From positions 186,001 through 250,000 of the forward strand of contig NZ_JACLHY010000002.1 of assembly GCF_014397245.1 (NCBI RefSeq): a stretch of 64,000 nucleotides of DNA, in the 5' to 3' direction. This DNA comes from Arenibacter arenosicollis (GTDB taxonomy: Bacteria; Bacteroidota; Bacteroidia; Flavobacteriales; Flavobacteriaceae). This document shows, piece after piece, positions 101 through 8,259 of this stretch (the stretch's first letter is position 1; each line of letters starts with the position of its first letter). The translations under genes and the position numbers were made by a program. The notes under the pieces are model-generated. The model had not been told where the DNA came from. It did no database searches and worked only from the letters and a program-made list of their open reading frames with translations.

Positions 101-1183
101 TTATGAGTTTATTATTTTCTCTTGGTGATTAATGGATTCTTGGTGAATTGCCTTAAACATTTTTAAAACAAATTCCTCACTTAAACCCTTAGCTTCACCT
201 TCCAAAATCATATTACCCAAAATAGCATTCCAGCGATTGCTTTGCAATACGGCAACGTTTTTCTGCTTTTTTAGGGCACCAATGGCATCGGATATTTTCA
301 TTCTCTTCCCGAGCATTTCGATTAACTGGCTATCAAGAACATCTATTTGCGCTCTTAGGTTACTAAGTTCAGCATTATACCCTGCCTCTGTATCAGATTC
401 TTTTCTAATTTTCAAATCTCTCATAATCTGGATCAATTTGGCTGGAGTTACCTGTTGGGCAGCATCACTCCACGCATTGTCCGGATCAAAATGAGTCTCA
501 ATCATTAAACCATCAAAATTAAGATCCAAGGCGGTTTGGGAAACATCAAAAATCATTTCCCTATTTCCTGTAATGTGCGAAGGATCATTAATTAAAGGTA
601 AATCCGGAAATTTATTTTGAAATTCAATGGCCAATTGCCATTCAGGGATGTTCCTATATTTTGTTTTTTCATATGTAGAGAAACCTCTATGTATGGCACC
701 TAGATTTTTTATTCCAGCAGTATACAATCTTTCAATTCCACCAAGCCATAAAGCTAAATCGGGATTTACAGGATTCTTTACCAAAACAATCTTATCTGTT
801 CCCTCTAGAGCATCTGCAATTTCTTGCATAATAAATGGACTAACCGTTGAACGGGCACCGATCCACAATAAATCTACGTCATGTTCCAATGCCAACTTTA
901 CGTGAGCAGCATTAGCTACCTCAGTACAGGTTTTCATGCCGGTTTCCGCCTTAACTTTTTGCAACCACTTTAAACCTAAAGCTCCCACTCCTTCAAACAT
1001 TCCAGGACGTGTTCTTGGTTTCCAGATACCAGCACGATAGTAATTTACATCGGTATCTTTTAACTCATTGGCAATTCGAAGCACTTGCTCCTCTGTTTCC
1101 GCACTACAGGGCCCGGCAATTACTAACGGATGGTCCAATTTCATATCGTCCAACCATGTTCTCATTTGTTTTGAATTTTCCAT
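101..1183 (-). CDS. Bifunctional DAHP synthase / chorismate mutase (type II)
   Basis: 360 aa. The N-terminal two thirds (about residues 15-255) is a class I 3-deoxy-7-phosphoheptulonate synthase of the short KDO8P-synthase-like type: it shows GPCSAETEEQV, WKPRTRPGMFEG and DPSHITGNREM. Residues about 268-355 are an AroQ-type chorismate mutase (LRAQIDVLDSQLIEML, KRMKISDAIGALKK). It condenses PEP with erythrose 4-phosphate at the head of the shikimate pathway and also makes prephenate at the branch to Phe and Tyr; the fused mutase usually serves as an allosteric sensor in this family. It is the last gene of the pheA-aminotransferase-tyrA operon, 9 bp after tyrA, and is followed by a terminator. 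The fusion is typical of Bacteroidota. Confidence in function is high; no feedback ligand can be read from the sequence. Confidence 0.95.
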   Translation of the reverse strand: MENSKQMRTWLDDMKLDHPLVIAGPCSAETEEQVLRIANELKDTDVNYYRAGIWKPRTRPGMFEGVGALGLKWLQKVKAETGMKTCTEVANAAHVKLALEHDVDLLWIGARSTVSPFIMQEIADALEGTDKIVLVKNPVNPDLALWLGGIERLYTAGIKNLGAIHRGFSTYEKTKYRNIPEWQLAIEFQNKFPDLPLINDPSHITGNREMIFDVSQTALDLNFDGLMIETHFDPDNAWSDAAQQVTPAKLIQIMRDLKIRKESDTEAGYNAELSNLRAQIDVLDSQLIEMLGKRMKISDAIGALKKQKNVAVLQSNRWNAILGNMILEGEAKGLSEEFVLKMFKAIHQESINHQEKIINS

Positions 1184-1192
1184 TTCTATACT

Positions 1193-2053
1193 CTATTTTT
1201 TGTTAAGTGGTATTCCGTTTAATATTTCCTTTATTTTATTTGTACTGTTCATTTCATTAAATATGCCTTCATAATCATCGGCAATCAACATTGCTTTAAA
1301 CTCTTTCAAATTTTGAATATATTCTCCCAAAGTTTCAACTACATTTTCCTTGTTTTGTTTAAAAATCGGGGTCCACATAGCTGGTGAACTTTTGGCCAAC
1401 CTCACAGTGCTTTCAAAACCACTTCCGGCCATGTCAAAAATATCACGTTCATTCCTCTCTTTCTCAATAACGGTCTTTCCCAACATAAAAGAGCTAATAT
1501 GTGACAAATGTGAAACATAAGCAATATGTTTATCATGTGCCTCCGGATTCATATAACGTATCCGCATACCCAATTGTTGAAAAAGCTCCAGTGCCCTTTC
1601 CTGTAATTTAAAGGCCGTTTTCTCTATTTCACATATGATATTCGTCTTCCCCATAAACAATCCTTCTATGGCCGCAGAAGGTCCGGAAAACTCGGTTCCT
1701 GCAATCGGGTGACAAGCCAAAAAATTTCTTCTTTTAGGATGATTCTCCACAACTTTACAGATCAAGGACTTCGTGGATCCCGCATCCAGCACTATGGCAT
1801 CATCATTTACAGCATCCAATATTTTGGGCAATTCCAGAACCATAACATCCACCGGAATACTCACGATTACAAAATCGGCCAAATGAAGTTGACCATAGTC
1901 CGATTTTTCATCGATCAAAGATAATGACAAGGCCTCATCCAAGTGACATTCATTGGCATCTATTCCGTAAATTTTGGAGTCCGGCCGGTTGCGCTTAATA
2001 TCCTTGGCTAAAGACCCTCCAATTAAACCGATACCGATTACAAATACATTCAT
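1193..2053 (-). CDS. tyrA: Prephenate dehydrogenase
   Basis: 286 aa, cytoplasmic. The N-terminal Rossmann motif GIGLIGGSLA binds NAD(P), and HPIAGTEFSGP near residues 115-125 is the prephenate-binding signature. The helical C-terminal dimerisation domain follows (MAGSGFESTVRLAKSSP). It oxidatively decarboxylates prephenate to 4-hydroxyphenylpyruvate for tyrosine synthesis. No ACT domain is present, so control probably rests on the operon attenuator and the fused chorismate mutase downstream. It sits between the aminotransferase gene, with a gap of about 110 bp, and the DAHP synthase gene. Confidence 0.95.
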   Translation of the reverse strand: MNVFVIGIGLIGGSLAKDIKRNRPDSKIYGIDANECHLDEALSLSLIDEKSDYGQLHLADFVIVSIPVDVMVLELPKILDAVNDDAIVLDAGSTKSLICKVVENHPKRRNFLACHPIAGTEFSGPSAAIEGLFMGKTNIICEIEKTAFKLQERALELFQQLGMRIRYMNPEAHDKHIAYVSHLSHISSFMLGKTVIEKERNERDIFDMAGSGFESTVRLAKSSPAMWTPIFKQNKENVVETLGEYIQNLKEFKAMLIADDYEGIFNEMNSTNKIKEILNGIPLNKK

Positions 2054-2162: not shown

Positions 2163-3305
2163 TTAAAACCTACCTATTGCTTCCTTAATCTTATCGGCCG
2201 TAACACATAAGGAGAATCGAATATATCCCTCTCCATTTGAACCAAAAATTGTCCCAGGGGTAATAAAAATGTTCTTATCATAAAGGACGGCGTCAATAAA
2301 CTTTTCCGAAGACGAAATCCCAGCCGGTAATTTAGCCCACACGAACATCCCTACTGAATTTCTATCATAGGTACATTTCAACTTATCGGCCAATGCGAAC
2401 ATTAATTCTCTCCTTTCATTATATACCCTATTCAAATCACTAAACCATGATTCACTACTGTTTAAGGCAGCTATGGCCCCTTTTTGAATACCGTAGAACA
2501 TTCCGGAATCCATATTACTTTTCACCTTTAGAACAGCATTAATATGTTCACTATTACCGAAAACCATCCCCACACGCCAGCCTGCCATATTAAAGGTTTT
2601 GCTCAATGAATTTAACTCTAAAGCCACGTCCATTGCACCCTCTATCTCCAAAATACTTATTGGATGTTGGTTCAACACAAAACTATAAGGGTTATCATTC
2701 ACCAATAATATATCGTTTTCCTTGGCGAAAGCAACAAGCTTCGTTAATTGTTCTCTACTTGCCGTCGCCCCTGTGGGCATATGTGGATAACTGGTCCACA
2801 TTATTTTCACTTTAGCAAGGTCTTGGTACCTCAATGCTTCCAAATCTGGAAACCAACCGTTATTATTGGTCAAGTCATAGTACCTTGGTACCGCCCCTAC
2901 CAAATTGGTAACCGATGTATATGTTGGATATCCCGGATTAGGAATCAACACTTCATCTCCTGGATTTAAAAAGGCCAAGCTAATATGCATTATTCCCTCT
3001 TTAGACCCCATCAACGGTAATACCTCAGTCTGAGGATTTACACTTACACCAAATTTATTCTTATAAAATGATGTAAACGATTCCCTTAGTTCGGGCAATC
3101 CTTGATAACTTTGATATTGATGCGCTCCATCATGGCTCAGAGCATCTTTCACTGCATTCTGAACCTCTATGGATGGTTCCAAATCAGGGCTTCCGATACC
3201 CATATTTATTATAGGTCTACCTTCGGCCATTAACCCCCTTACTTCTCTAAGTTTTTTAGAAAAGTAGTATTCTTCAACTGTATTTAATCTATTTGCCCCA
3301 ATCAT
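2163..3305 (-). CDS. Class I/II PLP aminotransferase, probably aromatic/prephenate
   Basis: 380 aa fold-type I PLP enzyme. The Schiff-base lysine is K236 in SLSKTFNMAGWRVG; the cofactor-binding NDNPY (about 204-208) and a C-terminal substrate arginine region (YIRFSL) are visible. The usual NPTGA loop reads HMPTGA, with Met in place of the canonical Asn. Its start codon overlaps the pheA stop by 4 bp (ATGA), so the two are translationally coupled. The operon context points to transamination of phenylpyruvate and 4-hydroxyphenylpyruvate; prephenate itself, or LL-diaminopimelate-like substrates, cannot be excluded. The family is certain, the substrate inferred. Confidence 0.85.
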   Translation of the reverse strand: MIGANRLNTVEEYYFSKKLREVRGLMAEGRPIINMGIGSPDLEPSIEVQNAVKDALSHDGAHQYQSYQGLPELRESFTSFYKNKFGVSVNPQTEVLPLMGSKEGIMHISLAFLNPGDEVLIPNPGYPTYTSVTNLVGAVPRYYDLTNNNGWFPDLEALRYQDLAKVKIMWTSYPHMPTGATASREQLTKLVAFAKENDILLVNDNPYSFVLNQHPISILEIEGAMDVALELNSLSKTFNMAGWRVGMVFGNSEHINAVLKVKSNMDSGMFYGIQKGAIAALNSSESWFSDLNRVYNERRELMFALADKLKCTYDRNSVGMFVWAKLPAGISSSEKFIDAVLYDKNIFITPGTIFGSNGEGYIRFSLCVTADKIKEAIGRF

Positions 3306-4132
3306 AATATTCTGGCATTTTTATATTCTCCCAATACTTTAAATTCTTCCGCCATAATTTCCAACAAGGCTTTTGCTTTGGAAAAATTTTTAAACTTTTC
3401 AAAGGTAACATCTACGAAAAAAGAATACTTCCATGGCGTTTCTATTACCGGTAAAGACTGTATCTTGGTTAGATTCAGATTACAATCGCTCATAACGTTC
3501 AAAATTGCAGCAAGACTTCCTCGTTTATGGTCAGTGATAAAACGCACAGATGCCTTATTAATTTCATTCTCCGGCAAAGCTTTATTCTGGGTCTTCACTA
3601 TTATAAACCTAGTGGAATTATCCTTTATCGTCTGAATTTCCGAATGTATAATCTCCAAGTCGTACAATTCCGCCGCAACTTTTGGCGCAATTGCTGCTAT
3701 TCCCCTTAACTGATTTTCCTGAATTCTTTTTGCCGTCTCCGCCGTATCTACATCCTCCACCAGTTTAATGTGCTTATAATTTTTAAAAAACTCATGGCAT
3801 TGTAGCAGGGCCATGGGATGCGATCTAACCTCTTGTATATCCTCTATCGTCTGACCCTTTAAAACCATTAGGTTATGATGAATATTTAAATACTGCTCAC
3901 CAATAATATGAAGGTTTTTGTGGAACACCAATGCATAATTGGGAATAATGGACCCCGCAATGGAATTCTCAATGGCCATTACCCCTTTATCCGCAGTTTT
4001 ATTTATCAGATGATCCACCAAACTATCAAAGGACGAACATTCAACGAATGTAACATCATCGCCAAAATAATCCTTAGCCACCTGATGGTGGTTAGAACCT
4101 TTTATACCCTGTATTGCAATTTTTAACTTCAC
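3302..4132 (-). CDS. pheA: Prephenate dehydratase with ACT domain
   Basis: 276 aa. Residues about 1-180 form the prephenate dehydratase domain: MAIENSIAGSI in the first lobe and the terminal STRFIIV motif with the catalytic Thr-Arg. Residues about 190-276 form a Phe-binding ACT domain (HKRGSLAAILNVM; the ESRP-type motif reads QSLP). It converts prephenate to phenylpyruvate. It is the first structural gene of the aromatic operon. An ATT-rich 86-nt spacer separates its ATG from an intrinsic terminator, which in turn follows a Phe-rich leader ORF, so transcription into pheA is probably attenuated according to charged tRNA-Phe. Confidence 0.95.
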   Translation of the reverse strand: MKLKIAIQGIKGSNHHQVAKDYFGDDVTFVECSSFDSLVDHLINKTADKGVMAIENSIAGSIIPNYALVFHKNLHIIGEQYLNIHHNLMVLKGQTIEDIQEVRSHPMALLQCHEFFKNYKHIKLVEDVDTAETAKRIQENQLRGIAAIAPKVAAELYDLEIIHSEIQTIKDNSTRFIIVKTQNKALPENEINKASVRFITDHKRGSLAAILNVMSDCNLNLTKIQSLPVIETPWKYSFFVDVTFEKFKNFSKAKALLEIMAEEFKVLGEYKNARIL

Positions 4133-4217: not shown

Positions 4218-4250
4218 AAAAAAAAAGTCCTGGTTTTCACAGGACTTTTA
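4218..4250 (-). terminator. Leader terminator (attenuator) of the pheA operon
   Basis: A 10-bp perfect stem (AAAAGTCCTG / CAGGACTTTT) with a 7-nt loop is followed on the minus strand by nine T. It lies between the leader ORF and pheA, so it would stop transcription before the operon. A segment of the leader ORF, GGGACT (complement of 4280-4285), can pair with AGTCCT in the 5' arm (complement of 4241-4246) and compete with the terminator, the layout expected of an antiterminator. The terminator is seen directly; the switch is inferred. Confidence 0.85.
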
Positions 4251-4272
4251 TCTATATATACTTTAAAATATG

Positions 4273-4344
4273 CTAGAACAGTCCCCTTCCTCCCTTAAAA
4301 AAGAAGTAAAAATAAAAACCGTTCCAGAAATATTGCTTTGTCAT
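4273..4344 (-). CDS. Phe/Tyr/Trp-rich leader peptide of the pheA operon
   Basis: A 23-codon ORF, ATG to TAG, on the minus strand. Eleven of 23 residues are aromatic: Phe at 6, 10, 12, 14, 15, 16 and 23, Tyr at 5, 11 and 13, Trp at 7. The densest run is residues 10-16 (FYFYFFF). The stop lies 23 nt before the attenuator terminator. This is the arrangement of classical ribosome-mediated attenuation as in enterobacterial pheA: stalling at the aromatic codons when charged tRNA is scarce would favour an antiterminator. No Shine-Dalgarno is seen, as usual in this phylum. A weak promoter-like pair (TTG-N19-TAAATATA) lies upstream. Too short for routine gene callers. Confidence 0.85.
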   Translation of the reverse strand: MTKQYFWNGFYFYFFFKGGRGLF

Positions 4345-4607
4345 TTTTCTTGTAAAACTGCGGCTAAAGTAATAATTATATTTATAAATCATTCCCTAAG
4401 CTACAATTTTTTTATTTAATTTATTATATTTTAAAAAAAATGTGAATTCCGTCCCTAAATTGGCTCAATTTTACGAATTATCAAGTATAAATAAATACAC
4501 CCAGCTTTACAGAAAACAACTATCCAACATTGACCTTCAATATTTTATCAAGAATAAATAAAACTAGATTTCACTAATTTGCATTATTTTTGATAAAAAG
4601 TAAACGC

Positions 4608-5501
4608 ATGTCCATCCTAGTAAAAAACATCACCAAATCCTTTGGTAAACAAATAGCATTGAACAAGGTTTCCTTTACTATTGAAAAGGGAGAAATTGTC
4701 GGCTTTTTAGGACCCAATGGCGCTGGGAAATCCACCATGATGAAAATTTTGACCACTTACCACACCCCGGATGAAGGACAGGCAGCAGTAAATTCATTTG
4801 ACGTACAAAAAGATAAGCAGAGCGTTCAAAAAAGTATTGGTTATCTCCCTGAACACAATCCTTTGTATCTGGACATGTATGTGAAGGAATATCTTGGATT
4901 TAATGCCGACGTATATAAAGTTGACAAGGATATGATCAATACGGTAATTGCCCAAACAGGCCTTACCCCCGAAGCCAACAAAAAGATTGGACAGCTTTCC
5001 AAAGGTTATCGGCAGAGGGTAGGACTAGCCGCCGCACTTTTGCACGACCCAGAGGTTTTGATTTTGGATGAACCAACAACGGGTTTAGACCCCAATCAAT
5101 TGTTGGAAATTAGAAAATTGATCCGGGAAATTGGAAAAGAAAAGACTATTCTACTTTCCACGCACATCATGAAAGAGGTAGAAGCCGTTTGTGACAGGGT
5201 ACTGATAATGAACAAAGGAACCTTGGTAGCAGATAAAAAACTTTCGGAATTAAGGGACGGACAGGACCAGATATTGGTGGTTGAATTCGATTTTAGAGTG
5301 GAAGAAGCATTTCTGAATAAATTGCCCAATGTGACCGCGGTTAAAAATATAGGTGGTTTTGTTTACGAGATTACCTTTAACACTACCAAGGATATGCGCC
5401 CTGTGGTATTCGACTTTGCCCATGATAATCAGTTAAAGACACTTCAATTAAGTAGGAAAAACAAAAATCTGGAGAGCCTATTTACAGAGATGACCGTTTA
5501 A
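4608..5501 (+). CDS. gldA: Gliding motility ABC transporter ATPase GldA
   Basis: 297 aa from the ATG. An in-frame TTG 18 nt upstream is possible, but the protein starts MSILVKNITKSFG like other GldA proteins. Walker A is GPNGAGKST at residues 35-43; the signature is LSKGYRQR, with Walker B LILDEPTTGLDP and the H-loop STHIMKEVEA. The C-terminal GldA-specific tail is complete (NLESLFTEMTV). In Flavobacterium johnsoniae GldA works with the GldF and GldG permeases and is needed for gliding; gldFG are not in this window. It is transcribed away from the aromatic operon and converges with modC. A TATTTTTG -7-like box at 4585-4592 lies just upstream. Confidence 0.9.
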   Translation: MSILVKNITKSFGKQIALNKVSFTIEKGEIVGFLGPNGAGKSTMMKILTTYHTPDEGQAAVNSFDVQKDKQSVQKSIGYLPEHNPLYLDMYVKEYLGFNADVYKVDKDMINTVIAQTGLTPEANKKIGQLSKGYRQRVGLAAALLHDPEVLILDEPTTGLDPNQLLEIRKLIREIGKEKTILLSTHIMKEVEAVCDRVLIMNKGTLVADKKLSELRDGQDQILVVEFDFRVEEAFLNKLPNVTAVKNIGGFVYEITFNTTKDMRPVVFDFAHDNQLKTLQLSRKNKNLESLFTEMTV

Positions 5502-5536: not shown

Positions 5537-6409
5537 CTATAATTTTTGAATTATAGGGTTAAAAGCCTTTGAAGCCACAAGAACCTGATCTCCCACCTTT
5601 AAACCATTAGCTTCAGTACGGTCCGAAACCACCTTAATAATATCATTCCCAATAAGTACAGAAATTACATAAATAACATCCTCCCTTTCTATTTTCAGGA
5701 CTTCTCCAGAGAACCTAAATTTAGCACTGGTCTTGTTAAGTCCAAAGAAATCGGCGGCCGCGCCTTTCTTGATTACCTTACCATTTTGAAGCTCAAATAC
5801 GCAATCCGATAATTTTACAATTTCCCCAATATCATGACTTACCAGTATCGTAGTGAGTTTGAATTGTTTATGGATTTGCAGAATGTACTCCTGCAATTTT
5901 ATCCGCATCTTTAAATCTAAGGCTGATAATGGTTCATCCAAAATTAAAATCTCCGGTCTTTGCACCAATGCTCTGGCCAATGCCACTCGTTGTTTTTGTC
6001 CCCCCGAAAGGGTTTCCGGTTTTCTTTGTTGCAATTCGCTGAGCTGTGCAAAATCCAACAACTCCTCAATTATAGATTTATCCTGGTTCCTTTGAAGGGC
6101 ATATTCCAAATTTTGCCTAACCGTCATATTAGGAAACAGGGCGTAGTCTTGAAATACATAACCCACCTTTCGTTGTTGTGGAACAAGATTAATATTCTTA
6201 TTGCTATCAAACCAAGTTATCCCGTCTACAGTAATAGTTCCGATATCTGGTTTCAACAAGCCACTAAGCATTCTTAAAGTAGAGGTTTTCCCGGCCCCGG
6301 ATTCCCCGAACAAGGTAACAAATTGCCCCTTTGCAATGTTCAATTCCAAATCAAGGACCATTTTTCCTCCGGTCGACTTAAGTATTTTTTTTAGGTTTAG
6401 CCGTATCAT
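5537..6409 (-). CDS. modC: Molybdate ABC transporter ATPase ModC
   Basis: 290 aa. Walker A GESGAGKT (35-42), Q-loop QDYALFP, signature LSGGQKQRVALARAL, Walker B LILDEPLSALD and the H-loop VSHD are all present. A C-terminal TOBE-like region (about 230-290) is the regulatory oxyanion-binding part of ModC. The start overlaps the modB stop by 4 bp. It is the last gene of modA-TOBE-modB-modC and powers molybdate import at the inner membrane. Tungstate is a possible alternative substrate. Confidence 0.9.
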   Translation of the reverse strand: MIRLNLKKILKSTGGKMVLDLELNIAKGQFVTLFGESGAGKTSTLRMLSGLLKPDIGTITVDGITWFDSNKNINLVPQQRKVGYVFQDYALFPNMTVRQNLEYALQRNQDKSIIEELLDFAQLSELQQRKPETLSGGQKQRVALARALVQRPEILILDEPLSALDLKMRIKLQEYILQIHKQFKLTTILVSHDIGEIVKLSDCVFELQNGKVIKKGAAADFFGLNKTSAKFRFSGEVLKIEREDVIYVISVLIGNDIIKVVSDRTEANGLKVGDQVLVASKAFNPIIQKL

Positions 6410-7077
6410 GGAACAAAGCGCTTAAAATATCCCCCATTTGCAAGATAAACCAAAAGTAGAATAATGAAGGTTATGGAAAACAATATCAATGAATAACTAT
6501 TGGCAGCGGAGTAATTCATCGCTTCTACCTCGTCATAGATGGCAATAGAGGCTACTTTGGTCTTTCCTGGCATATTACCTCCAATCATTAAAACCACGCC
6601 AAACTCACCAACCGTATGGGCAAAGGACAAGACAATGCCTGTCAAAAGCGCGGGCTTAACATTGGGCAATAATATTTTTATAAGGGTTGTCATTTTTGAT
6701 TTCCCCATGGTGTATGAAGCTTCTTTTAGTGTAGATGGCAGGGAGGAAAGCCCGGCTTGAATAGGTTGTACCATAAACGGAAGGCTATATATGACCGAAG
6801 CCACCACCAAACCGCCAAAAGAAAATATAAGTCTTATTCCCAACCATTCATTCAACCAATTCCCAAAAGCATTTTCCGGACTAAAAGCCACCAACATATA
6901 AAAACCCAATACCGTTGGTGGCAGCACCAAGGGCATGCTGACCAGAGTTTCTATCACTGGCTTTATTTTAGATTTGGTATTGGAGAGCCAATAGGCAATG
7001 GGAATTGAAACCACAAACAATATAGCCGTGGTTATTAAGGCAAGTTTAAAAGTAAGAACCAGAGGTTGCCAATCCAT
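6406..7077 (-). CDS. modB: Molybdate ABC transporter permease ModB
   Basis: 223 aa with about five hydrophobic segments. It begins MDWQPLVLTFKLA as ModB proteins do and carries the ModB signatures PLVLPPTVLGFYML and, as the coupling EAA-type loop, the GEFGVVLMIGGNMPG segment. Its ATG overlaps the stop of the TOBE gene by one base (TAATG), and its own stop overlaps modC, indicating tight translational coupling. Confidence 0.92.
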   Translation of the reverse strand: MDWQPLVLTFKLALITTAILFVVSIPIAYWLSNTKSKIKPVIETLVSMPLVLPPTVLGFYMLVAFSPENAFGNWLNEWLGIRLIFSFGGLVVASVIYSLPFMVQPIQAGLSSLPSTLKEASYTMGKSKMTTLIKILLPNVKPALLTGIVLSFAHTVGEFGVVLMIGGNMPGKTKVASIAIYDEVEAMNYSAANSYSLILFSITFIILLLVYLANGGYFKRFVP

Positions 7078-7478
7078 TATGGTGCCAGTATTATCTCGTT
7101 TAATTTAACCATAATTTTCACTTTCATTTTATCAACCAATCCCAATTGCTTTACACTTAAGCTACTTATTATGGCAACGACTTCACCAATACTGGTTTCC
7201 AAAATTAATCTACTCATTAATACGCCTATTTCGATATTGGTAATAATTCCAGGAATCTTATTCTCTATACTAACGTCCAGTTCTTTTTGCGTACTAATTG
7301 CAACCTCCATTTCCTTAAAAAGGACATTTACCTTGTTGCCCTTTATTAAATATGAGGCTGTTTGAGGCGTATCTATTACTACCGAAATTAGTTCAATTTG
7401 GTTATCTACCTCTACATAAACAATGGACATATTTCCATAAGTTTTAATATCTGTAATATGCCCAGGAAAACTATTCAT
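7077..7478 (-). CDS. Double-TOBE (Mop-like) molybdate-binding protein
   Basis: 133 aa made of two TOBE/Mop-like repeats, residues about 1-65 and 68-133. Each has the small-beta-barrel pattern GxITxI...V.V and a conserved hydrophobic core. Mop proteins bind molybdate intracellularly as oligomers. No DNA-binding domain is present, so it is not a full ModE; storage, or sensing together with ModC, is possible. Encoded inside the mod operon between modA (8-bp overlap) and modB (1-bp overlap). Placement here rather than as a ModE fusion is unusual outside Bacteroidota. Confidence 0.75.
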   Translation of the reverse strand: MNSFPGHITDIKTYGNMSIVYVEVDNQIELISVVIDTPQTASYLIKGNKVNVLFKEMEVAISTQKELDVSIENKIPGIITNIEIGVLMSRLILETSIGEVVAIISSLSVKQLGLVDKMKVKIMVKLNEIILAP

Positions 7479-8259
7479 TCACCAAATATCCAAATTCTTT
7501 TAATATCTCCATGGCATCCTTGGAAAAAAGAAAATCATAAAAGCCCTTGGCTTCATGATTATTATCCCCTTTTAGATTCACAAGCACCACACCTTGACCA
7601 ATGTTGGAATAGAGTGAAGGATCTATTAGAATCCACCTACCTTTACCTCTCATTTCCGGAGATAGTACCGTTGATAAGGCCGTGAATCCAATCTGCGCAG
7701 CTTTGGAGATAATGAATTGATCTGTCTGACCAATGCTTTCCCCAAAAACCAATTTGGGTCCTAAGGTTTCCTGCAATCCGTAGTGCTGCAAAACTTCCGT
7801 GGCAGCAACTCCGTATGGGGCAGTTTTTGGGTTTGCCAAAGCAATGTGTTCTATTTGGGAATTTGATAGCCCAGCAATTGAAACCGGCATATTCTCAATC
7901 ATTGACCAAAGCACCAATTGCCCCTTTGCATAGACCTTAGGAGAACTCATCGCCTTGCCCCCATTAAAAACCGCTTCCGGATATTTCATATTTGCCGCCA
8001 CAAAAATGTCATATGGCGCCCCTTCCAAAATTTGTGCTGTTAATTTACCCGACGAACCCACAACCAATTCAAATTCCAAACTAGATTTGTTGGCATAGAC
8101 TTTTGTCAACTCCTCCATGGCAGAAGCCATATTTGCAGCAGTGGCGACTTTAATTTTTTTAACGTGACTTTCCTGACATGCCACCAAGAAGCAAGTTAAA
8201 AAAATGAATCCCGCCCATCCTTTGACTGGTCCATTTAATATTTTCTGGCTCAAGGTCAT
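7471..8259 (-). CDS. modA: Molybdate-binding lipoprotein ModA
   Basis: 262 aa periplasmic solute-binding protein. A hydrophobic leader ends in the lipobox LVAC (C28). The mature part starts KIKVATAANM and has VVGSSGKLTAQI and APYDIFVAAN, the typical ModA oxyanion-binding loops. It captures molybdate or tungstate and delivers it to ModBC. First transport gene of the operon, 52 bp after the sulfurtransferase gene. A TAAATTTG -7-like box is present on the minus strand at 8271-8278 but has no good -33 partner. Confidence 0.9.
   Translation of the reverse strand: MTLSQKILNGPVKGWAGFIFLTCFLVACQESHVKKIKVATAANMASAMEELTKVYANKSSLEFELVVGSSGKLTAQILEGAPYDIFVAANMKYPEAVFNGGKAMSSPKVYAKGQLVLWSMIENMPVSIAGLSNSQIEHIALANPKTAPYGVAATEVLQHYGLQETLGPKLVFGESIGQTDQFIISKAAQIGFTALSTVLSPEMRGKGRWILIDPSLYSNIGQGVVLVNLKGDNNHEAKGFYDFLFSKDAMEILKEFGYLVNE

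Follow-up and report, generated by a model that had tools for sequence, protein, structure and literature searches.

A candidate ribosome-mediated attenuator with an aromatic-rich leader peptide upstream of pheA in Arenibacter arenosicollis and other Flavobacteriaceae

Introduction

The trp, phe and his attenuators of enterobacteria share a common build, in which a short open reading frame rich in codons for the operon's product is combined with RNA segments (1 to 4) that form alternative helices, and with a terminator that precedes the operon. An earlier note on DNA from Arenibacter arenosicollis claimed a full set of such parts ahead of pheA. This locus therefore raises the question of whether pheA in Flavobacteriaceae is governed by a translated leader and, if so, which amino acids that leader would sense. 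The window referred to below is the whole stretch of 64,000 nucleotides that was analysed, and positions count from its first letter.

Results

The locus and its parts

The leader ORF has the 23 codons and 11 aromatic residues proposed in the earlier note, and its stop codon lies the stated 23 nt from the terminator hairpin; all parts are on the minus strand, the note having named no strand. The terminator also lies ahead of pheA as described, but the distance from the hairpin's end to the GTG start at 4132 is 90 nt rather than the 86 nt given previously, which may have been counted from further into the U run. The GGGACT segment near the leader stop, singled out as a possible partner for the terminator's 5′ arm, can indeed form this pairing. 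Downstream, Pfam and NF006307 matches identify the expected operon of pheA, an aminotransferase gene (AT), tyrA and a gene for a bifunctional DAHP synthase/chorismate mutase (DAHPS/CM), all of which are listed in Table 1. This gene order is found in 78 of 80 named relatives; for the two exceptions, one or two genes at the operon's end were not found in the stretch examined. The PheA protein itself shares 99% identity with its counterparts in Arenibacter sp. F26102 and A. hampyeongensis.

Table 1. Features of the pheA attenuator locus in the window, and further amino-acid leaders of the same genome
Feature	Position	Strand	Remarks
Putative promoter −7-like element TACTTTAG	4371-4364	−	19 nt before leader ATG; kept in 9-row alignment (Arenibacter and two near genera)
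Leader ORF MTKQYFWNGFYFYFFFKGGRGLF*	ATG 4344 to TAG 4273	−	23 codons, 11 F/Y/W
Region 1 CUGGAACGGUUUUU	4314..4327	−	Within aromatic codons; predicted to pair with region 2 absent ribosome
Region 2 GGGGACUGUUCUAG	4273..4286	−	Last leader codons and stop; predicted antiterminator 5′ side, GGGACU at 4285-4280
Region 3, terminator 5′ arm AAAAGUCCUG	4240..4249	−	Hairpin and pairing evidence
Region 4, terminator 3′ arm CAGGACUUUU	4223..4232	−	Further U after arm
Intrinsic terminator hairpin AAAAGUCCUG-N7-CAGGACUUUU and U run	4249-4223	−	23 nt from leader stop codon
pheA, prephenate dehydratase (PDT)	3302..4132	−	GTG start 4132; Pfam PF00800, E 1.9e-57
Class I/II aminotransferase (AT)	2163..3305	−	PF00155, E 1.2e-62
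tyrA, prephenate dehydrogenase	1193..2053	−	NF006307 above its cut-off, E 7.4e-117
Bifunctional DAHP synthase/chorismate mutase (DAHPS/CM)	101..1183	−	PF00793 and PF01817
Nearest large ORF upstream of leader	4590-5501	+	By eye ABC transporter ATPase; divergent from pheA operon
Trp leader MKNMVSNTWWWSNLRTTS (WWW) and terminator	L306:729-842		A. arenosicollis C7; before trpE and downstream genes
His leader MKNNRTHHHHFFTCSQAS (HHHH) and terminator	L305:1185-1297		A. arenosicollis C66; before hisG
Ile/Val leader MKINVNIINVVIIVP and terminator	L310:1028-1139		A. arenosicollis C66; before ilvD

The −7-like element resembles the TAnnTTTG box of Bacteroidota, and no −33 element could be established beside it. 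No Shine-Dalgarno-like sequence was seen, by eye, before the leader ORF. Translation initiation in Bacteroidota is thought not to rely on Shine-Dalgarno sequences. Since the nearest large ORF upstream of the leader is divergent, the terminator can act only on the operon's own transcript. Also in the window, at 5537-8259 on the minus strand, are four ORFs, for an ATPase, a permease, a small protein and a binding protein, that appear by eye to form a cluster for an ABC transporter of the molybdate type.

Conservation upstream of pheA

The check suggested in the earlier note, a search upstream of pheA in related genera for a conserved aromatic ORF and terminator, was carried out on a family sample of one genome per genus. 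The PDT domain was found in 130 of 149 genomes, and 128 upstream regions were examined. A region was scored as positive when an ORF 8-45 codons in length held 7 or more aromatic residues within 12 codons and was followed by a hairpin with a U run, no more than 420 nt from pheA. Leader and terminator occur together in 123 of the 128 genera, as compared with 0/128 for the antisense strand and 3/2560 for dinucleotide shuffles, and the pairing between them covaries (see below). The 7-in-12 threshold was chosen after the first results; thresholds of 5, 6 and 7 each give 123 genera, and a threshold of 8 gives 120. If the terminator is not required, an aromatic-rich ORF of the same density appears in 79 of the 2560 shuffles. 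The joint occurrence of leader and terminator upstream of pheA is thereby confirmed as real and beyond chance.

Two of the five misses (L192 and L235) possess both parts further upstream, and no leader was found upstream of pheA in the remaining three of the 128 genera (L161, L187 and L216). Two PDT-bearing genera, G065 and G084, fell outside the 128: G084 has a leader with 6 aromatic residues in 12 and a terminator, and none was seen in the roughly 140 nt of upstream sequence from G065. Within the Arenibacter genus, every genome (18/18) carries leader and terminator. All 123 family leaders start with ATG and are 18-29 codons long; the stop codon lies 20-26 nt from the hairpin in 92 of them, and its distance from pheA varies from 48 to 178 nt over the whole set.

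When the same rule was applied to genomes of the class outside Flavobacteriaceae, 17 of 34 were positive (families f3, f4, f5, f8, f34 and f45). Five more genomes (L264, L290, L296, L297 and L299) show an aromatic run and a hairpin by eye, the shape of the hairpin having been missed by the scanner, and a looser threshold of 6 in 12 with a terminator recovers 5 of 8 further class genomes. The leader was not found in two genomes of f2, another family of the same order, in four of f44, or in two of the four from f8. Outside the class, the count of 4 positive genomes in 58 (L277, L461, L472 and L476) is a rough lower bound, because many of these genomes were picked on their domain scores and the actual upstream region may be masked where genes are fused. 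Near genera share a strongly conserved peptide, and the peptide sequence outside the aromatic run varies between families; over distance, it is the aromatic codon run and the pairing that persist rather than one RNA sequence.

Alternative helices and covariation

Pairing was assessed in an alignment of 49 rows (A1), chosen for having a called leader and terminator. RNAalifold recovers from it, unprompted, both the 3:4 terminator and a 1:2 helix that joins the aromatic codons to the end of the leader. In the 1:2 helix, 95.2% of cells are paired, with two-sided changes at 2 of 12 pairs. The 2:3 antiterminator helix is paired in 95.6% of cells and shows two-sided changes at 4 of 7 pairs, and its pairing drops to 22-57% when it is slid by 1-3 columns. 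The 3:4 helix reaches 98.9%, with two-sided changes at 5 of 9 pairs, in rows that had been selected for a terminator. One of five measures, that of further pair types, is not unusual, being reached by 27/500 shuffles for 2:3 and by 107/500 for 1:2 plus 3:4.

The pairing of region 2 with the terminator arm was further examined over six core bases in 144 more diverse leaders, all with a called terminator. Full 6/6 pairing of region 2 with its own arm, G-U allowed, is present in 108 of 144, in comparison with 22% for swapped arms and 10% for shuffled leader ends, and the remaining 36 lack a full six-pair region 2 under the rule used. If only Watson-Crick pairs are counted, the figures are 59/144, 2.2% and 0.6%, respectively. 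Furthermore, the middle base of region 2 tracks the arm in 77 of 78 leaders: an arm of GTCCCG is accompanied by G in 24/24, and an arm of GTCTCG by A in 53/54. This last comparison covers the two commonest arm types (96 of the 144 rows), minus 18 rows without the motif. The PheA protein tree requires only 3 arm changes, so that independent covariation events are few; two independent pairs fall on starred branches, and a sign test is not significant. Together, these data point to an antiterminator, with its 5′ side at the leader end, whose formation would exclude the terminator, as is characteristic of attenuators of the trp, phe and his type.

In two leaders, L056 and L087, the stop codon is shifted upstream and the GGG(A)CTGTTGTAG segment is retained past it. 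This retention suggests that in these two cases the RNA segment, rather than the C-terminal peptide, is under selection.

Spacing and folding

Spacing was counted in the 108 leaders with a called terminator and a full match, the 36 without a full match being left out. The start of region 2 lies, at the median, 16 nt beyond the first base of the final aromatic codon (14 nt beyond that of the run's last codon in the Arenibacter leader), and in 88 of 108 its end lies 4-14 nt short of the stop codon's end. In 98 of 108, segment 2 ends somewhere from 14 nt upstream to 3 nt downstream of the stop codon's end, a position at which a ribosome on the stop codon is expected to mask it. With the footprint of the ribosome taken at its generally known size, region 2 would thus lie just past a ribosome stalled on the final aromatic codon, and would be covered by one that has reached the stop codon.

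Folding of the window sequence gives a corresponding picture. With the codon for F14, F15 or F16 in the A site, the antiterminator is the lowest-energy fold even when the terminator is complete; with the stop codon in the A site, it is the terminator, and with no ribosome it is the 1:2 helix plus the terminator. Across the 123 family leaders, the antiterminator forms in 121 stalled leaders before the 3′ arm has been made (shuffled spacers, 458/615), and the terminator forms in 123/123 when the ribosome is at the stop (shuffled spacers, 613/615). Once the full terminator is present, only 17 of 123 stalled leaders still have the antiterminator as their lowest-energy fold (shuffled spacers, 5/615), and the switch would therefore have to be kinetic in most genera. 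Equilibrium folding was dropped as a sole test of the switch, termination being favoured in 106 of 123 stalled leaders with the full terminator.

Leader codons and residue specificity

In A1, variation at codon positions 1, 2 and 3 averages 0.037, 0.063 and 0.133, such that third positions are two to four times more variable than second and first positions, and at ten aromatic sites 28 of 36 replacements are to another aromatic residue. Judged by this coding-type variation, the leader is kept as a coding frame. With regard to the claim that one leader senses all three aromatic amino acids, Phe and Tyr hold up well, both being encoded in 123/123 leaders, and Trp does so weakly, W being encoded in 85/123. 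The W site of the 49 rows holds W in 37, Y in 6, F in 5 and G in 1, and W makes up 3.1% of leader residues as against 1.2% of the four operon proteins. The codon content hence suggests a sensor chiefly of Phe and Tyr, with Trp as a minor input.

Leaders built in this way are also present in the genome of A. arenosicollis for Trp, His and Ile/Val (Table 1). An automatic scan of Flavobacteriaceae found a WWW leader with terminator in 16 of 30 trpE regions, and a leader with at least 3 His in ten with terminator in 16 of 30 hisG regions; 30 loci were taken for each, from the 39 (trpE) and 33 (hisG) genomes with a match. In the 128 pheA regions, such ORFs contain no more than two W and one His. 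This agreement of leader residues with the operon's product (F/Y for pheA, WWW for trpE, His for hisG) is the strongest hint of function that the sequences provide.

A model of the leader RNA (R1) gave a single strong match within the A. arenosicollis genome, that at pheA (143.8 bits), and thus no strong sign of a second copy of the element there. Weak overlapping matches to the model, of 37.6 and 35.5 bits, lie on both strands at G000:C1:480583-480753. In 60 genomes, the model has matches at E 0.01 in 52, which include many weak ones away from pheA, and no count was taken from them.

Genomes that lack prephenate dehydratase

A PDT match is absent in 19 of the 149 Flavobacteriaceae genera, from which we infer Phe auxotrophy. 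DAHPS/CM was found in 16 of these 19 genomes, and in 6 of the 16 it is preceded by a Trp-Trp leader and then a terminator (L402, L404, L406, L407 and L412 by scan, L405 by reading); Trp-Trp occurs in none of the 123 pheA leaders. In one PDT-less genome, G050, the leader RNA model finds the element directly before DAHPS/CM, with the leader MTNNNTWWSNSKFYLKR. Among the other loci, L403 shows by eye a candidate leader that contains one W and is followed by a terminator, and in L401 DAHPS/CM still lies behind tyrA; L416 offers no upstream sequence, and no leader was seen at six others. L408 runs against the Trp-Trp rule in having, by eye, an F/Y-type ORF, MRLFSYNSQSFYFIS, before DAHPS/CM with at best a weak hairpin, yet this genome is rated only 86% complete, so that PDT may merely be absent from the assembly.

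In a tree of DAHPS/CM, the six Trp-Trp genomes occupy two positions. G050 branches as sister (99, starred) to G064, where the operon is retained behind the leader MSNNIWNSFYFYFYFSNKG; the remaining five belong to a group made up of ten PDT-less rows (support 92, not starred). TrpE was searched for in two of the six, G044 and G050, and is present in both. We lean towards a view of the leader as an evolvable pan-aromatic sensor, with codons that follow the products the operon can still supply: Phe, Tyr and to some extent Trp before the full operon, and Trp-Trp before DAHPS/CM after the loss of PDT, a change made at two or more separate points within a single family's tree. If true, this would be a natural series tying pathway loss to the re-tuning of an attenuator.

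In the class sample, 110 of 149 genomes are without a PDT (PF00800) match, as are 99 of the 137 rated at least 90% complete and no more than 5% contaminated. Either many of these organisms are Phe auxotrophs, or another enzyme is used.

Discussion

A ribosome-mediated attenuator

The earlier note's reading of this locus as an attenuator is supported, leader, terminator and antiterminator pairing being both conserved and covarying. The sequence contains the features that define the trp/phe/his type: an ORF of product codons, a terminator between this ORF and the first gene, an antiterminator, and a stop codon placed so as to mask it. Based on these parts, on their conservation, covariation and spacing, and on residue specificity, it is highly probable that the region upstream of the pheA operon is a ribosome-mediated transcription attenuator.

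In such an attenuator, RNA polymerase would start shortly before the leader ORF, probably 10-20 nt as judged from the −7-like element, with a ribosome following close behind. Should charged tRNA-Phe or tRNA-Tyr be short, the ribosome would stall within the aromatic run (codons 5-16) and leave region 2 free, allowing 2:3 to pair before region 4 is made and transcription to enter pheA-AT-tyrA-DAHPS/CM. With plentiful charged tRNAs, the ribosome would instead reach the stop codon and cover region 2, and the 3:4 terminator would form. In the absence of translation, 1:2 would form, and the terminator would be expected to form as well.

A variant of this mechanism, compatible with it, is that Trp has no role, only the Phe and Tyr codons counting and W being an aromatic filler. 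This variant is a serious contender, if not quite the favoured one: 38 of 123 leaders have no W, W, Y and F interchange at the W site, W7 sits nine codons ahead of the run's end, and trpE of the same genome has its own WWW leader. Conversely, the enrichment of W in leaders over the operon proteins, the DAHP synthase at the operon's end, which also feeds Trp, and the Trp-Trp leaders that precede DAHPS/CM in some PDT-less genomes would all be at odds with a Trp codon devoid of function.

Other mechanisms fit the evidence less well. The strong conservation of the peptide among near genera would be in keeping with a TnaC-like arrest by the nascent peptide, free Phe or Tyr being the ligand, or with translational attenuation. 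Yet the peptide outside the aromatic run varies between families, which is unlike arrest peptides as they are generally known, and the leader is followed by a U-run terminator to which region 2 is complementary; such a mechanism is improbable. Still less credence is given to control of the terminator by a ligand-binding RNA (riboswitch or T-box) or an RNA-binding protein, with an incidental ORF. Riboswitches, too, typically show conserved 5′ structure together with a terminator, and PMC9723704 lists the pheA region among structured 5′ elements in its text. In the whole window, however, the only Rfam matches at gathering score are two tRNAs, no riboswitch or T-box being among them nor among the 16 sub-threshold matches of a permissive local scan; moreover, an aromatic codon run and a pairing are kept over distance rather than one RNA sequence, and leader residues follow the operon. 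Lastly, that a chance ORF merely adjoins an ordinary terminator without regulatory role is scarcely credible, for although F and Y codons are AT-rich in an AT-rich region and aromatic-rich ORFs alone are not very rare in shuffles (79/2560), leader and terminator are found in 123/128 genera as opposed to 3/2560 shuffles, the leader varies as a coding sequence, and the divergent upstream ORF leaves the terminator no neighbouring gene to end on the minus strand.

The attenuator reading, taken together with the comparisons between genera, indicates that textbook ribosome-mediated attenuation is probably the usual arrangement before pheA in Flavobacteriaceae, and that it also occurs in other Bacteroidota families. 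The leaders could be considered for annotation and as an Rfam family, and comparing them between genomes offers a way to study how leader codons adjust to the content of the pathway.

Comparison with known systems

The region upstream of pheA has been pointed to before. A 2021 study of Flavobacterium psychrophilum (PMC9723704) describes in its text a 5′ element upstream of pheA that is conserved in other Flavobacteriaceae genera, and it reports clues of leader-peptide attenuation at amino acid operons, with conserved pheA and hisG elements that have no Rfam matches. The gene and the family are the same as here; the text section on this element does not describe a peptide, a pairing, covariation or any occurrence outside the family, some of which Table S7 or appendix D9 of that work may hold. 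Among the matches listed in a literature search, judged by title and abstract opening and including few subscription papers, this study was the only one that appeared to concern an aromatic leader in Bacteroidota.

Naville and Gautheret (2010; PMC2965389) knew of no leader-peptide systems demonstrated outside Proteobacteria and Actinobacteria, other than ermC, and they added Firmicutes; the available text of that paper has no mention of Bacteroidet-, Flavobacter- or pheA. Within Bacteroidetes, a transcript map of B. thetaiotaomicron (PMC7366714) likens sORFs in long 5′ UTRs to leader peptides, pheA not being mentioned in the available text, and Korolev 2016 (PMC4833913), in the text available, counts short leader genes by distance and not as attenuators. 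Closer in content is the uORFC-13-1 motif upstream of aroF in Acholeplasma, described in the text of PMC8632094, where a Phe-coding uORF lies just before a terminator. It likewise combines a Phe-coding uORF and a terminator ahead of an aromatic gene, but belongs to another phylum and is described there as having at least one Phe codon only. The kind of attenuator is therefore old and the pheA region has already been pointed to, whereas the comparative series across PDT loss was not met with in the parts of the literature examined; this re-tuning of codons is the most interesting part of the present analysis.

The Rfam model of the E. coli Phe leader (RF01859) scores the Arenibacter element at 18.7 bits (E 0.97), below its gathering cut-off of 55, so that the element does not belong to that family by score. 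No common descent with E. coli pheL is claimed, and the likeness appears to be one of build. Like E. coli pheL-pheA (RF01859) and trpL, the Arenibacter locus combines an ORF of product codons, predicted alternative helices 1-4 and an intrinsic terminator before the operon. Unlike pheL and trpL, its leader mixes codons for Phe, Tyr and often Trp, has no visible Shine-Dalgarno sequence, and would govern the whole of pheA-AT-tyrA-DAHPS/CM.
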